A stretch of DNA of 64,000 nt from Sinosporangium album (GTDB lineage Bacteria > Actinomycetota > Actinomycetes > Streptosporangiales > Streptosporangiaceae), in contig NZ_FNCN01000015.1 of assembly GCF_900100605.1 (NCBI RefSeq), forward strand, positions 62,001 to 126,000, written 5' to 3'. Each line of letters opens with the position of its first letter. Within the stretch, counting starts at the first letter, position 1. This document shows positions 33,668 to 44,873 of the stretch, in pieces. A program made the translations under genes and the position numbers. Under the pieces are notes generated by a model. That model saw only the letters and a list, made by a program, of their open reading frames with translations, searched no databases and was not told the origin of the DNA.

Positions 33668-34966
33668 TCACCAGGTGACGGGAACCTCCTCGAATCCTTC
33701 GATCATGACTCCGCTGGAGCGCTTGAGTTCGAGGGGGTCGCAGGCGAGGGTGAGGCCGGGGAACCGCCTCAGCACCCCGGTCAGCGCGACCTGCATCTCC
33801 ATGCGGGCCAGGGCCGAACCGGCGCAGTGGTGCGGGCCGGTGCTGAAGGTCAGGTGGGGGCGGGGCGGGCGGTCGAAGTCGACGGTGGCGGGGTCGGGGA
33901 ACACGGTTTCGTCGCGGTTCGCCGACTCCATGGCGAGGATGACGCCGGAGCCGGCGGGGATGGTGGTGCCCGCCACCTCGATGTCCTCCTTGACGTAGCG
34001 CAGGGAGGCTATCGAGCTGAACACGACCTGGACGCGGAGGATCTCTTCCACGGCGCGCGGCACGAGGGTGAGGTCCTCGCGGAGCGTGGCGAGGGCGTCC
34101 GGGTTGGTGAGGAGGGTGATGATCGAGGCGCCGAGGTGGTTGGCGGTGGTCTCGTACCCACCCATCAGCAGGGATTTCGACCAGTAATACAGCTCGTAGT
34201 CGTTGAACCGGCTGCTGTCCTCGTCGCGTACGGCGATGAGCCCGCTGATCAGGTCCTCGCCGGGGTTCGCGCGCTTGGTATCGATGAGCGCGTTGATGTA
34301 CGCGTCGAGTTTGGCATTGTTGGCGGCGACCAGTTCCTTGGGATACTTGCCGAGCGACAGGTAGGTGTCCGTCCAGGCGGTGAATTCCCGCTGGTCCTCA
34401 GTCGGCACCCCCAGGAGTTCGCACAGGATGCGGATGGTGAGGGGGAAGGTGAGGGTGGCGTGCAGGTCCGCGGGCGGCCCTTTCTCCTCGACCGCGTCGA
34501 GCATCTCCTCCACGATGCCCTCGGTGTAGGCGCGTAGCCGTTCGACGCGCGACGCGGTGAAGGCCCGGGCGATGAGGCGGCGCATCCGGGTGTGGTCGGG
34601 CGGATCCTGATTGACGTTGGGGTCCTGGAAGAGGGTGTTCTCCTTGGACATGCGCGGTGTGCCGGGCCGCGACAGGTCGCGCGACAGTCGGCGGTCGCCG
34701 AGCAGGGCCTTGACGTCGGTGTAGCGGGTCACGAGCCAGGCGGCGTCGCCGCTCGGCAGGGTGACGCGCATGACGGGCTGTTCGCGGCACCACAGCAGTG
34801 TGCTGGGCGCGTCGAGCACGGTTTCCCGATCGGTGAACGGATAGGGAAGCCGGGGTCGGGGGGCGGTTCGGGGCGTGGTTTGAGGCGTGGTTTGAGGCGT
34901 GGTTTGAGGCGTGGTTTGAGGCGTGGTTTGAGGCGTGGTTTGAGGCGTGGTTTGGGGCGTGGTCAC
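33668..34966 (-). CDS. Cytochrome P450 with TTPQ-repeat N-terminus
   Basis: 432 aa bacterial P450. Heme-ligand segment FSTGPHHCAGSALAR (Cys about 381), ExxR as EEILR, I-helix LLMGGYETTANHL. Class I enzyme that needs separate ferredoxin partners; none is adjacent. The first 35 residues are tandem TTPQ units from 12-bp repeats, which other P450s lack. GTG 34966 follows GGGAGGAG at 7 nt; a longer frame to 35125 has no such signal. Substrate unknown. Confidence 0.9.
   Translation of the reverse strand: MTTPQTTPQTTPQTTPQTTPQTTPQTTPQTTPRTAPRPRLPYPFTDRETVLDAPSTLLWCREQPVMRVTLPSGDAAWLVTRYTDVKALLGDRRLSRDLSRPGTPRMSKENTLFQDPNVNQDPPDHTRMRRLIARAFTASRVERLRAYTEGIVEEMLDAVEEKGPPADLHATLTFPLTIRILCELLGVPTEDQREFTAWTDTYLSLGKYPKELVAANNAKLDAYINALIDTKRANPGEDLISGLIAVRDEDSSRFNDYELYYWSKSLLMGGYETTANHLGASIITLLTNPDALATLREDLTLVPRAVEEILRVQVVFSSIASLRYVKEDIEVAGTTIPAGSGVILAMESANRDETVFPDPATVDFDRPPRPHLTFSTGPHHCAGSALARMEMQVALTGVLRRFPGLTLACDPLELKRSSGVMIEGFEEVPVTW
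34870..34962 (-). repeat. In-frame 12-bp repeat at the N-terminus of the P450
   Basis: About seven to eight units of ACCACGCCTCAA (minus strand), coding TTPQ. Copy number is likely to vary between strains. Confidence 0.88.
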
Positions 34967-35284
34967 AGTCGGTCTCCTCCCGCTGTGAGGTGGTCGGACC
35001 CACGTGCGGATGCCGAGGGGAACGGCATGAGGGCGGCTCACGCGCGATGCCCGCGACGCGGGGTCCGAACCCCGCGCGCCAGTGGTACGGCGGGCATCAT
35101 GAATGCGATTACCCGGACCTCGCACTCATAACACTAGTCAGAATGAAGGGATATGTCCTTAATCGCCGGGGCGACATAACAGGCGAGTCAGCGGACCCCA
35201 TGTGGTGAGACCGAAATACGGCAGTCCATATGATGGGCCCTACCTCCATCCTCCTCCACGCTGTCGCCAGAAAGGTGCCCTGCG
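34967..35284. other. Divergent intergenic region
   Basis: Between the P450 gene and the metallophosphoesterase. GCGGGGT-CCGA-ACCCCGC (35061-35078) is a perfect small hairpin. An AT-richer stretch at 35105-35175 probably carries the promoter(s). No gene seen. Confidence 0.4.
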
Positions 35285-40395: not shown

Positions 40396-40771
40396 TTCGG
40401 CATTGCCGTACGGCACGGCCGCCGCGCCGGCGACCGCCCATGGCCTAGCTTGGACACGGGATTAAAACGCCAAACTTTACGGCGGGAAGCGCGTGTTGGT
40501 TATCCTCACAGATATCGAGGGCGCGTAATTTATTCAACCGAGACAAGATCAAGGGCACCTGAATATGTTGGCGTGCCCCATCACAACAGGGAGCAAATCA
40601 GTCCATAGTAGGGGCGCTTCACCAGCGAATCCTCGCTGTTCGACAGGCCCCTAGCCCTGCATCACCCTTCAACTCCACATGCCAGAGGTCATGTGGATTG
40701 AGATGTCATTCATGACGCTCATCATCGGGGGCTACGCCGGGATTCACCGGCGTCAGCGAATGGGAGGACAA
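40396..40771. other. AT-richer intergenic segment before the SARP remnant
   Basis: From about 40450 to 40700 the GC content drops clearly (AATTTATTCAACCGAGACAA; GGATTAAAACGCCAAACTTT) compared with the flanks. This may mark a junction of acquired DNA or a strong regulatory region. No gene is evident. Confidence 0.45.
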
Positions 40772-41251
40772 TTGCTTAGTTTTCGGATACTCGGTTCTCT
40801 GGAGGTGGTCCAGGAAGATGCCGTATGCACCCCGACCGCACCGAAAGCGCGACAAACATTGGCATTGCTTCTGTTGCGCTCCAATCACATCGTGTCGACC
40901 AGCGCGTTGGTCGACGAGCTCTGGGGCGACAACCCCCCGCCCACCGTGGTCACGACCGCCCAGTCGTACATCTACCAACTGCGCAAAGTCCTCCATCCCC
41001 GCGGGCGGCAGGCCGCGCCCGGCGAGGTCGCGCTGATCACCCGCTCCCCCGGCTACGTGCTCGCCAGGCACGAGGGCCAACTGGACCACGACCTCTTCCT
41101 CCAGGTCGCCGGCCAGGGCCGGGCCCTGCTGGAGCAGGACCAAGACAAGACGTCAGCATGCGAACGCTTGTGCATTCAGGGAGACATGCCCGTATTCGCG
41201 TGTGCCCGGGGGCGAGGGTTGCAGGCACCTCACAGAAAGGTGGATGAATGA
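40772..41251 (+). CDS. Truncated SARP-type transcriptional regulator
   Basis: 159 aa. Starts LSFRILGSLEVVQ with an OmpR-type winged helix: KARQTLALLLLRSNHIVSTS, LVDELWGDNPPPTVVTTAQS, YIYQLRKVL, ITRSPGYVLARHEGQLDHDL, as in the AfsR/SARP family. The BTAD domain starts (FLQVAGQGRALLE...) but breaks off after about 20 residues and a 30-residue unrelated tail follows. TTG 40772 follows GGGAGGA at 3-4 nt. Its stop overlaps the next gene (ATGA). SARPs activate antibiotic clusters, so this may be a relic of one. Confidence 0.8.
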   Translation: MLSFRILGSLEVVQEDAVCTPTAPKARQTLALLLLRSNHIVSTSALVDELWGDNPPPTVVTTAQSYIYQLRKVLHPRGRQAAPGEVALITRSPGYVLARHEGQLDHDLFLQVAGQGRALLEQDQDKTSACERLCIQGDMPVFACARGRGLQAPHRKVDE

Positions 41252-43137
41252 GCGGAATCGCCGGGTGGGTGGACTTCCACCGTGACCTGAGCGTCGAGCG
41301 CGGTGCCGTACTCTCCCAGCTCGCGACGCTCGCGGCGCGCGGGCCGGGGGCCGAGAACGTCTGGATCGGGCGGCACGCGCTGCTCGGGTCCCGCGGCGGC
41401 CCGCGCGGGAGCGGCCAGGCCATCGTCGCCGCACAGGGCGACAGCGCCGTGGTGGTGATGGACGGCCACCTGACCAACGCGGCGTCGCTGCACGCCGAGC
41501 TCTCGGGATACGGCAGAGCCGTCGGCTGCCCCGGCTACCCGGAGCTGGTGGGCCACGCCTACCTGCAGTGGGGGGAGGCGTGCGCCGAGCACCTGGAGGG
41601 GATGTTCGCCGCCGCCGTGTGGCATCCGCGCCACCAGCGCCTCACGCTGCTCCGCGACCGCCTGGGCACCAGGCCCCTCTACTACCAGCGGACCGCCGAC
41701 GGGCTGCTGTTCGGTTCGGAGCCGAAGGCGGTGCTGATCCATCCCCTGGCGGACACGGTCGTCAACGCGGGCGGGCTCCGGGAGCTGTTCGCCTACACCT
41801 CGACGCCGGGAGCGGGAATCGTCCGCAGCCTGCGCCGGGTCCTGCCCGGCGGTCGGGTCGACTTCGACAGGTCCGGCATGCGGGAGTGCCGTTACTGGCA
41901 GGTCGCCGCGGAGCCGCACCACGACGGGCTCCACCGGACGGTGCGCAAGGTGCGGGAGCTGCTGGAGGCGTCGGTCGAGAACCAGATCGGCGGCGATCCC
42001 TCGGTCGGGCTGCTCCTGTCGGGCGGGCTCGACTCGTCCGCGGTGGCCGCGTTGGCCGCGGCGGTGCTGAGGCGGAGGAACGCGGGGCGGCTGCGCACCT
42101 TCACCACCGGCTACGCCGATGTGGGGCCCGCGATTCCGGGGCCGATCCGGGGGCCCGAGGACAGGCCGCACGCAGCCGTGGTGGCCCGCCACCTGCGTAC
42201 GGAGCACCATTATCTGCCGCTCGACACGGCGGCTCTGACCGATGTCGTGACCCGCAGCAGCGCGGTGTCGGCGCAGCAGGACACGCCGGTGGCGATGCCG
42301 CAGTTCCCCGCGTCGCTGCGGATGCTCTGCCGACACGTGTCCCGGCACACGAACGCCGCGCTCGGCGGGCATCGGGCGGATATCGTGTTCGGCTCGAACG
42401 ATGAGGTCGTGTTCGGCTCGAACGAGGGACCAGACGGGACGGAGCGGGGGGACCGGGGAGACGGCGGTGGCAGATCGCGCGCCTGCACCTATCCCTGGAT
42501 TTCCGCGATGAGGATGAGATATCCGGCGCCTGCCTTCGGAACCGGACTGTTCTCCCAGGAACTGCTGGGCCGGCTCGACATCCCGACCTACTGCGCGGAC
42601 ATGTGCCGGACCGACCTCGCGTCGGTGCCGCGGCTGCCGGGGGAGGACGTCCACGACCGGCGGATGCGGGAGATCTCCTTCCTGAGGCTGCAGGGGCTCC
42701 AGGAGCTCGACAACATGCTCGACGACGGAGCCAGCTCTTTCGAAGGCGTCGATCTGCGGCTGCCGTTCAGCGATCACCGGCTGGTCCAGTACCTGTTCAA
42801 CGTTCCGTGGGCGTTGAAATGCTTCGACGGCAGGTCCAAGAGCCTGCTGCGGGCGGCGACGGCCGATCTGCTCCCCGACTCGGTTCTGGAGCGCGCGCCC
42901 AGCCACTTCCCGATCGGGCGGCACCCCGCCTACGGCGTGTTCCTGCGCAGACAACTCGCCCACGTGCTGGCCGACCGCGGCTCCCCCGTGGTGCCGCTCC
43001 TGGACGTGGCCGCGGCCAGGCGCCTGATCAAGGAGCCGATCATCGCGTCACGCACCTGGGTGGACGTGACGGACATGGAGATGGTCCTGCAGGTCAACCA
43101 GTGGTTGGAACGTTTCAATGTGCGGGTCCTCCTCTAG
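41248..43137 (+). CDS. Asparagine synthetase (glutamine-hydrolysing)-like protein lacking the glutaminase cysteine
   Basis: 629 aa. Layout as in AsnB: N-terminal Ntn-hydrolase-like domain (GIAGWVDFHRDL, MDGHLTNAASL, FGSEPKAVL), then synthetase domain with the PPi loop LLLSGGLDSSAVA (Ser258). Residue 2 is Ser (codon AGC), not the catalytic Cys, so glutamine-dependent ammonia release is presumably lost. The conserved GEGADE-type loop is degenerate (GGHRADIVFGS, about 372) and followed by a duplicated 8-codon unit. It resembles lasso cyclases and other amide-forming AsnB relatives in losing glutaminase function, but the altered synthetase loop may also mean decay. Overlaps the SARP remnant by 4 nt. 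Confidence 0.82.
   Translation: MSGIAGWVDFHRDLSVERGAVLSQLATLAARGPGAENVWIGRHALLGSRGGPRGSGQAIVAAQGDSAVVVMDGHLTNAASLHAELSGYGRAVGCPGYPELVGHAYLQWGEACAEHLEGMFAAAVWHPRHQRLTLLRDRLGTRPLYYQRTADGLLFGSEPKAVLIHPLADTVVNAGGLRELFAYTSTPGAGIVRSLRRVLPGGRVDFDRSGMRECRYWQVAAEPHHDGLHRTVRKVRELLEASVENQIGGDPSVGLLLSGGLDSSAVAALAAAVLRRRNAGRLRTFTTGYADVGPAIPGPIRGPEDRPHAAVVARHLRTEHHYLPLDTAALTDVVTRSSAVSAQQDTPVAMPQFPASLRMLCRHVSRHTNAALGGHRADIVFGSNDEVVFGSNEGPDGTERGDRGDGGGRSRACTYPWISAMRMRYPAPAFGTGLFSQELLGRLDIPTYCADMCRTDLASVPRLPGEDVHDRRMREISFLRLQGLQELDNMLDDGASSFEGVDLRLPFSDHRLVQYLFNVPWALKCFDGRSKSLLRAATADLLPDSVLERAPSHFPIGRHPAYGVFLRRQLAHVLADRGSPVVPLLDVAAARRLIKEPIIASRTWVDVTDMEMVLQVNQWLERFNVRVLL
42383..42425 (+). repeat. 24-bp tandem duplication inside the AsnB-like gene
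   Basis: TCGTGTTCGGCTCGAACGA occurs at 42383-42401 and 42407-42425, an exact 24-bp period (eight codons, VFGSNDE/VFGSNEG). It sits where AsnB enzymes have the catalytic GEGADE-loop. Confidence 0.88.
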
Positions 43138-43144
43138 CGGGCCG

Positions 43145-43285
43145 CATCCGGACATGCGACATGCACGTACGACATGCGACATGCGACATGCGAAGGGCGG
43201 TTGCGTTGGAGCAACACAGTGTCAGGTCGATGGCTGTCAGACCGATAGCTGTCAGACCGAGGACTGTCAGGCCGATGCCCGAGGC
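43145..43285. repeat. Short imperfect repeats before the DUF1772 gene
   Basis: GACATGC repeats (43150-43195), then three imperfect 15-bp units GCTGTCAGACCGATA at about 43229-43275. No coding sense. Confidence 0.7.
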
Positions 43286-43317
43286 CGCCGTCGAGCAACC
43301 CGTGAGGAGACGATGAC

Positions 43318-43779
43318 ATGGCCGTGCTGCTGCCTTTCGCTCTGCTGCTCAACGGCGTGCTGTCCGGGATGCTGCTGTGGTCGGTGGTCGGCGGCACGCC
43401 GTGGGTGCGCCGACTGAACGGAGCCGACTACCTTGAGCTGCACCAGTTCTGGCTGAGGCGGCTCGAACCGCTGGAGAACTTCTGCGTGAGCGGGGCGCTC
43501 CTCGCCGACGCCACCTTGATCTTCCTGTCCCACGCCGTGCACGTCCAAGCGGCCCTGGGGGTCGCCGTCGGCGCACTGAGTGCGGTGATGGTGATATCGG
43601 CGACGCGAAGCGCCCGTCTCAGACAGTCGATCCTCGTCGTCGGCCCTCACGGCGTCCCCGACGACTGGCGGCACGCGGACCCGCGCGAACGGTGGGAACG
43701 CTGGAACATCGCACGCGCGATCCTCACGCTGACGGCCTTCACCGCCAACGTCACGGCGGTCGGAGCCCTCGCCTGGTGA
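43318..43779 (+). CDS. DUF1772-like membrane protein
   Basis: 153 aa with four hydrophobic segments. LLNGVLSGMLLWSVVGGTPW at the start, LHQFWLRRLEP, and RERWERWNIARAILTLTAFT near the end resemble DUF1772, which includes anthrone-oxygenase-like proteins of polyketide clusters. ATG 43318 follows GAGGAGACGATGAC. Function unknown; it may belong with the AsnB-like gene upstream. Confidence 0.72.
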   Translation: MAVLLPFALLLNGVLSGMLLWSVVGGTPWVRRLNGADYLELHQFWLRRLEPLENFCVSGALLADATLIFLSHAVHVQAALGVAVGALSAVMVISATRSARLRQSILVVGPHGVPDDWRHADPRERWERWNIARAILTLTAFTANVTAVGALAW

Positions 43780-43865
43780 TCGACGATCGCAGGCGACCCT
43801 GGCCGGTGTCCGGCCGACACGATAGCCTCCAACGCGCCACGTCCGCCGCTGACGCTGGAGAGCCT

Positions 43866-44873
43866 ATGGACTGGACACCGGCAGGGTTGTTCACGGTCGA
43901 GGCGGGCCGCCTGCAATGCGCCCTATGTCCGCTGCGATGCGTGCTGGACGACGGCGAGGTCGGGCGGTGCCAGGTGCGCCGCCGGCGCGGCGACCTCATG
44001 GAGACCGCGACCTTCGCCACGTCGGTGCGCCATAAGGACGCCGTCGAGCGCAAGCCGTTCTATCACTACAGGCCCGGATCCACGGCACTGACCATCGCGG
44101 CCCCGGGCTGCACCTTTCGCTGTGATTACTGCGTCAACCACCGCCTCTCGCAGTTCGGCAGGGAGGGCGGGCTGCCCTGGGCGGCCACGCCGGTCGATCC
44201 CGCCGGCCTCGTCGCGTCGGCCGCGGCGGAGGGGGCGAGCGTCGCCCTGTCCTACACCGAGCCGTCGCTCGCGGTCGAGCTCACGCTCGCGCTGGCCGAG
44301 TACGGCGCGGCGGCCGGGGTGGACGTGCTGTGGAAGTCCAACGGTTTCCTCACCCCCGAGACGACCGCGCTCGCGGCCCCGGCCCTCGCGGCGGTGAACA
44401 TCGACCTGAAGGCCGGCGACGAACACGCCCACCACCGCGTCACCGGCGCGCCGCTGCGCCCGGTCCTGACCACGATCCGCGCGATGGTGGAGCTCGGCGT
44501 CTGGGTCGAGGTGAGCACGCCCCTCATCCCCGGATGCAGCAGCGAACCCGGCCAACTCTCGCGCATCGCCCGGCTCATCGCGGAGATCGACGCCGACATC
44601 CCCTGGCATCTGCTGCGCTTCACCCCGGCGTTCCAGAGGACCGGTACGGTGCCCACCGGTCCCGAGGCGCTCCGGGACGCCGTGGCGATCGGGCGCGACG
44701 CCGGACTGCGGCACGTCTACGTCGAGCGGGCCCTCGGGGCGACGGGCCGGGCGACGAGGTGCCCGGGATGCGGGGCCGAGGCCGTACGGCGCGGGGTGTG
44801 GACGACGGAGGCGGTGCGGATGACCGACGGGCGGTGCAACGCGTGCGGGCACCGGATTCCCGGCCGCTGGTGA
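43866..44873 (+). CDS. Radical SAM protein (AmmeMemoRadiSam/pyruvate-formate-lyase activase-like)
   Basis: 335 aa. Cys82-x3-Cys86-x2-Cys89 (PGCTFRCDYC) binds the SAM cluster. N-terminal ALCPLRCVLDDGEVGRC supplies three more cysteines and C-terminal CPGCG...CNACG looks like a zinc knuckle. WKSNGF, NIDLKAGDE and STPLIPG are AmrS/PflA-like positions. Its usual partners Memo and AMMECR1 are not next to it, so the substrate stays open. ATG 43866 follows GGAGAGCCT. Confidence 0.88.
   Translation: MDWTPAGLFTVEAGRLQCALCPLRCVLDDGEVGRCQVRRRRGDLMETATFATSVRHKDAVERKPFYHYRPGSTALTIAAPGCTFRCDYCVNHRLSQFGREGGLPWAATPVDPAGLVASAAAEGASVALSYTEPSLAVELTLALAEYGAAAGVDVLWKSNGFLTPETTALAAPALAAVNIDLKAGDEHAHHRVTGAPLRPVLTTIRAMVELGVWVEVSTPLIPGCSSEPGQLSRIARLIAEIDADIPWHLLRFTPAFQRTGTVPTGPEALRDAVAIGRDAGLRHVYVERALGATGRATRCPGCGAEAVRRGVWTTEAVRMTDGRCNACGHRIPGRW

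Follow-up and report, generated by a model that had tools for sequence, protein, structure and literature searches.

An AsnB-like gene of Sinosporangium album is probably an orphan from a Cys2-less clade of putative amide ligases associated with type II PKS clusters

The AsnB-like gene at positions 41248..43137 (+ strand) of a 64,000-nucleotide stretch of Sinosporangium album DNA, hereafter the window, is probably an orphan that comes from an ancient clade of AsnB-type amide ligases whose genes normally lie in type II PKS clusters. Its synthetase site is remodelled, and the protein would have left its original pathway and become impaired or changed in amide formation. Directly supported are the loss of Cys2 throughout the clade, the genomic context of its members, the loss of the cluster around the window gene, the states of the catalytic residues and the constraint on the protein.

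The gene encodes 629 amino acids, with an N-terminal Ntn-type domain and a C-terminal PP-loop synthetase domain. Pfam matched GATase_7 (PF13537; 86.4 bits, cut-off 25) and Asn_synthase (PF00733; 190.9 bits, cut-off 21), each covering the expected domain, and these two domains, the PP-loop SGGLDSS (pattern SGG[LV]DSS) and a fold match place the protein in the AsnB superfamily. It is predicted to fold confidently, its fold being intact in an AF2 model (mean pLDDT 87, pTM 0.90) in which only residues 387-410 fall below a pLDDT of 50. The ORF starts with ATG AGC (Met-Ser), so that codon 2 (41251..41253, + strand) specifies Ser and not the nucleophilic Cys. The glutaminase pocket is altered beyond Ser2, with Asn/Ser-Gly-Glu changed to Asp-Gly-His and Asp97 to Tyr.

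In AsnB, Glu348 is the general base of the synthetase reaction, which also relies on a pair of Mg-site Asp residues and a Lys. Residue numbers here are those of the window protein, except Glu348 and Glu352, which follow AsnB. The PP-loop of the window protein (residues 258-264; 42019..42039, + strand) is intact and includes Asp262, the Mg/PPi-site Asp, and Lys531 (in SKSLLR; 42838..42840, + strand), the catalytic Lys that the family conserves, is retained. The synthetase loop (residues 373-381; 42364..42390, + strand) reads GGHRADIVF, versus SGESADEVF in Cys2-bearing paralogues; His375 occupies the Glu348 position and Ile379 that of Glu352, and Asp378 is kept. The initial annotation had thus been right to describe an AsnB-like gene with Ser at codon 2 and a remodelled synthetase loop. 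With its Glu348 equivalent replaced, the synthetase site of the window protein is perhaps inactive.

Comparing the loop among homologues, as the initial annotation had suggested, turned up no close relative that combines Cys2 with an intact loop: Cys2 is missing from all close relatives, and three (Nonomuraea, Microtetraspora and Microbispora; loci L019, L050 and L051) retain a Glu-bearing loop, AGEQAD. Since these three keep it, the loop change is, as judged from the alignment, younger than the loss of Cys2. The loop Glu is absent from two close relatives of the window gene as well: genome G064 has Asn375 and Asn378, and the congener G004 has His375, Asn378, Ala262 (SGGLASS for SGGLDSS) and Gln531. 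Recent decay unique to the window genome was therefore ruled out, because close relatives share the loss of Cys2 and two of them that of the loop Glu.

Just after the loop lies a segment (residues 387-410; 42406..42477, + strand) that is longer than in every relative and predicted to be disordered. It takes in part of an imperfect 24-bp tandem duplication (42383..42425, + strand), found in none of the relatives compared. The duplication had been taken for an exact one of 24 bp; it is present, but the exact repeat is the 19-bp core TCGTGTTCGGCTCGAACGA (42383-42401 and 42407-42425), spaced by 24 bp, and the 24-bp units match at 21 of 24 positions. A 19-mer repeated exactly and side by side is far more than chance would produce, so the duplication is real.

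The family search covered 343 genomes, of which 159 carried homologues at E <= 1e-130; part of these homologues were read, and the residue-2 counts are those among the matches listed. Cys2 was missing in 10 proteins: residue 2 was Ser in the window protein, its counterpart in the congener G004, a second G004 copy and two proteins of genus g37; Gly in G064, Microtetraspora, Microbispora and G275; and Ala in Nonomuraea. All 32 other proteins of the tree had Cys2 (MCG start). On the maximum-likelihood tree a single branch (SH-aLRT 95) set the ten Cys2-less proteins, including that of the window, apart from the rest, with one change of the Cys2 state. The named loci of Microtetraspora fusca, Microbispora hainanensis and Nonomuraea endophytica were identical to family members. 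In the class-wide sample of 395 genomes, all 14 homologues, most of them from the same family, carried Cys2, and no member of the Cys2-less clade was found outside the family; a plasmid collection held no match above 40% identity. With one clade, one state change and Cys2 in the other homologues, Cys2 appears to have been lost once, long ago, and its absence conserved since.

Eight of the ten Cys2-less members are housed in type II (aromatic) PKS clusters. In five of these (G064, Microtetraspora, Nonomuraea, Microbispora and G275), KS/CLF pairs lie within about 25 kb of the AsnB-like gene, and genes for a TcmI-type cyclase (PF04673), Polyketide_cyc, an ABM monooxygenase, an anthrone-oxygenase-like protein (PF08592) and acetyl-CoA carboxylase each occur in at least one of the five clusters. 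KS genes also occur near the AsnB gene in the two g37 members and in G004:C32. The clade members at L058 and L063 lie in type II PKS clusters. The g37 clusters contain glycosyltransferases, and L076/L095, the cluster of L063, adds a DegT aminotransferase, a methyltransferase and ORFs read from their N-terminal sequence as dTDP-glucose synthase and dehydratase; such dTDP-sugar genes would be as expected for pradimicin-type clusters.

Genes for amine supply vary from cluster to cluster, and some could serve other steps. Directly downstream of the Microbispora AsnB-like gene are MppP (492.9 bits, cut-off 450) and an MppQ-like protein (486.1 bits, below its cut-off of 540). MppP orthologues occupy the same place in Microtetraspora and Nonomuraea, and the MppQ-like gene has orthologues in two of the three genera, so that at L036, L037 and L038 arginine-modifying enzymes follow the Cys2-less gene immediately (MppP/MppQ-like in Microtetraspora and Microbispora, MppP also in Nonomuraea). 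The G064 aromatic PKS cluster includes, at L035:10726-14806, a methylaspartate mutase E (Pfam MutE, 263 bits; TIGR01503, 142.5 bits, below the cut-off of 390.1) and a glutamate-synthase-like FMN protein. In G275 the neighbours of the Cys2-less gene in its type II PKS cluster (L039:8019-14207) include PEP mutase (313.7 bits, just below the cut-off of 319.55), phosphonopyruvate decarboxylase (397.9 bits, cut-off 312.5) and a B12-binding radical SAM enzyme; the gene content of the cluster makes an aromatic polyketide-phosphonate hybrid possible. An aminotransferase gene adjoins the second G004 copy.

From the clade-wide absence of Cys2, the type II PKS context and the nearby amine-supply genes, the best-supported reading is that clade members would be glutamine-independent amide ligases using an amine as nucleophile. 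A specialised enzyme that forms amide bonds without drawing ammonia from glutamine had been one of two readings offered initially, and for the clade, with ten Cys2-less proteins on one branch, eight in type II PKS clusters and several next to amine-supply genes, it is well supported.

Known enzymes offer partial parallels. Beta-lactam and carbapenam synthetases have the AsnB fold without a working glutaminase, use an amine nucleophile and carry Tyr in place of Glu348. Both (1JGT and 1Q15) are fold matches of the window model, but they carry out intramolecular ring closure and are about 15-20% identical to the window protein. Among solved structures TsnB9, the trichostatin hydroxyamidotransferase, is nearest both by sequence (372 bits) and as top PDB match to the model (7YLZ; TM 0.93 by target length); it differs in having Cys2 (MCGVAGW) and a Glu-bearing loop (SGEAADEIFA). 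FdmV and LlpA are AsnB-like enzymes of pentangular polyphenol (type II PKS) pathways. XanA, and Abf2 by likeness, are AsnB-like proteins of type II PKS clusters assigned to lactam formation (PMC9469721). Compared by pathway, not by residues, these four resemble the clade in their setting within type II PKS clusters, but the XanA type is tied to a lactam ring. PdmN of the pradimicin pathway of Actinomadura hibisca, a pathway that also requires sugar enzymes, is a D-Ala/D-Ser ligase that adds an amino acid to a polyketide (PMC10951976). It is thus a type II PKS amide ligase using an amino acid and not ammonia, and L058 and L063 lie in clusters of this kind, that of L063 with the pradimicin-like sugar genes; by this context PdmN would belong to the Cys2-less clade. 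The window copy differs in having no cluster.

Judged by its gene content, the window locus is a remnant from which most of the polyketide cluster has been lost. A SARP-type regulator gene (40679..41251, + strand), which overlaps the start of the AsnB-like gene, retains its DNA-binding domain (Pfam Trans_reg_C alone) and lacks most of the BTAD domain, as aligned with its 333-residue G004 orthologue (BTAD, 134 bits). The second surviving gene of the PKS-type cassette (43318..43779, + strand) encodes an anthrone-oxygenase-like protein of PF08592 type. Its own Pfam score (18.0 bits) is below the cut-off of 27.3, which its relative at L038 exceeds (28.6 bits), and it is 54% identical to the cassette gene product of G064 and 40-45% to others. 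These two genes alone remain of a type II PKS cluster, and no amine genes are co-encoded at the locus. In the window genome (G000), a 7.06-Mb draft of 97 contigs in which gene absence is not absolute, a profile search detected no PF04673 cyclase, and no close match to the cluster ketosynthase was found (best 43% identity, versus 63% in G004). On the upstream side the window shares synteny with G004 over a sugar ABC transporter and a regulator (85-92% identity), and in G004 SARP and then AsnB follow at the same place as in the window. A pair of KS-like ORFs lies elsewhere in the window genome (G000:C45:84998-88553), 43% and 29% identical to a type II KS.

For the reaction, its amine nucleophile and the current activity of the window protein, we infer the following course. 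In the ancestral enzyme the C-terminal PP-loop domain would have used ATP/Mg to adenylate an aromatic polyketide at a carboxyl group, and the acyl-adenylate would have been attacked by an amine or amino acid specific to the pathway; as such a mechanism would need no ammonia, the glutaminase function of the N-terminal domain would have been lost. The window lineage has shed the polyketide and amine genes and is left with a truncated regulator. In its synthetase loop His has replaced the general base Glu and an insert predicted to be disordered has appeared, and the protein has stayed folded, its amino-acid sequence under constraint. We favour such an orphaned protein with a remodelled site over both a live pathway enzyme and a plain pseudogene.

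It appears unlikely that the window protein is an active glutamine-independent amide ligase of a live pathway, in which the change of Glu348 to His would be akin to the Tyr of beta-lactam synthetase, itself among the fold matches, and the loop insert would tune substrate binding. Retention of the PP-loop, of Asp262 and Asp378 at the Mg site and of Lys531 means that the copy could still be a competent ligase with its partner elsewhere in the genome. Selection on the open ORF was purifying along the window branch, where w = 1 is rejected (2dlnL 35), and the codon-position ratio of that branch (0.92) falls between the extremes seen among sister pairs of homologues with intact residues (0.34-1.22). 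Against a live pathway stand the missing polyketide cyclase, close cluster KS and co-encoded amine genes, and the congener G004, which has also lost Asp262, Asp378 and Lys531. The loop region, moreover, looks near-neutral from its window-branch changes at the three codon positions (9/6/12 in residues 361-430).

A pseudogene decaying without constraint is a decidedly less probable account. It would fit the truncated neighbouring SARP, the vanished partner genes, the 19-bp repeat and disordered insert within the active-site loop, and the dN of AsnB, which is about 2.5-5 times as high as in five flanking genes whose dS is broadly similar. In counting estimates between the window and G004, AsnB has dS 0.69 and dN/dS 0.38, and the transporter, IclR and phosphoesterase flanks have dS 0.43-0.72 and dN/dS 0.10-0.16; dN/dS is 0.35 for the P450 and 0.21 for AraC. 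Yet neither a stop nor a frameshift occurs in 629 codons despite synonymous divergence from G004 equal to that of the flanks, the modelled fold is intact, and window-branch changes over the whole gene are distributed 46/43/100 by codon position. Maximum-likelihood pairwise w was 0.059 for AsnB, 0.019-0.032 for the five flanks, 0.052 for the P450 and 0.075 for AraC, and w = 1 was rejected pairwise for every gene fitted (AsnB, 2dlnL 352). In the six-taxon free-ratio fit the synonymous branches were very long and one stem was ill-determined, so use of the fit was limited to its neutrality tests; they rejected w = 1 on the G004 branch (2dlnL 37) as on that of the window.

From these rejections, the codon-position counts and a ratio within the homologue range, the AsnB-like protein is, on the sequence record, constrained through much of its separate history, the loop region excepted; constraint may have been lost very recently, which one genome cannot reveal. 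An argument from dN/dS for relaxed selection outside the loop was dropped, because the P450 and AraC genes evolve about as fast in the maximum-likelihood fit and codon-position ratios match those of residue-intact homologues. The decaying gene that the initial annotation had offered as its other reading holds in part: the pathway decayed and the loop looks near-neutral, but neutrality is rejected for the coding sequence overall.

The initial likening to lasso cyclases proved superficial. A lasso-peptide-like cyclase acting on a ribosomal precursor would share the AsnB superfamily, but it is very improbable, given a match to the NCBIfam model NF033535 of 161 bits against a cut-off of 525, nearest homologues in aromatic PKS clusters, and no leader-peptide binding (B) protein or peptidase recognised among the neighbouring ORFs scanned. 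An ordinary glutamine-dependent asparagine synthetase, suggested by overall fold and domain order, has a negligible chance of being correct, as Cys2 and further glutaminase residues are absent and the NCBIfam equivalog model TIGR01536 scores 254.1 bits, below its cut-off of 267.1.

A wider proposal extends the orphaned-ligase reading, and we offer it tentatively. A family-wide ligase branch may join aromatic polyketide acids to unusual cluster-encoded amines (an MppP-derived arginine product, methylaspartate, a phosphonate amine), with a sub-branch (the window genus and G064) lacking the synthetase general base, and in G004 also both Mg-site Asp residues and the Lys, that selection may keep for a non-catalytic or new role. 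A Cys2-less AsnB-like gene beside type II PKS genes would be a simple sequence mark for clusters expected to make amides of aromatic polyketides with amines other than ammonia; for some of these amides (arginine-derived, phosphonate) we found no description. The copies of the window and its congener would exemplify how an enzyme behaves after the loss of its pathway, and they make it possible to test whether pseudo-synthetases retain a function.

Several further features were seen around these genes. Adjoining the G004 AsnB copy is a separate DpgA/DpgC/PGM1-type cluster (L034:362-8252 and L044:5168-14299) with DpgA, DpgC, an aminotransferase, a PGM1-type ATP-grasp protein, a carbamoyltransferase and sugar genes, resembling a pheganomycin-type cluster. 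In the window, the intergenic stretch between the AsnB-like and PF08592-type genes (43138-43317) contains short motifs that recur, among them GACATGC and CTGTCAG. An AmmeMemoRadiSam-type radical SAM gene follows at 43692-44873 (206.6 bits, cut-off 220), of which the G004 counterpart matches a 92-residue C-terminal stretch alone (L044:4541-4816). The P450 ORF at 33668-35125 has an N-terminal extension with a run of TTPQ repeats, and its true start is probably downstream.
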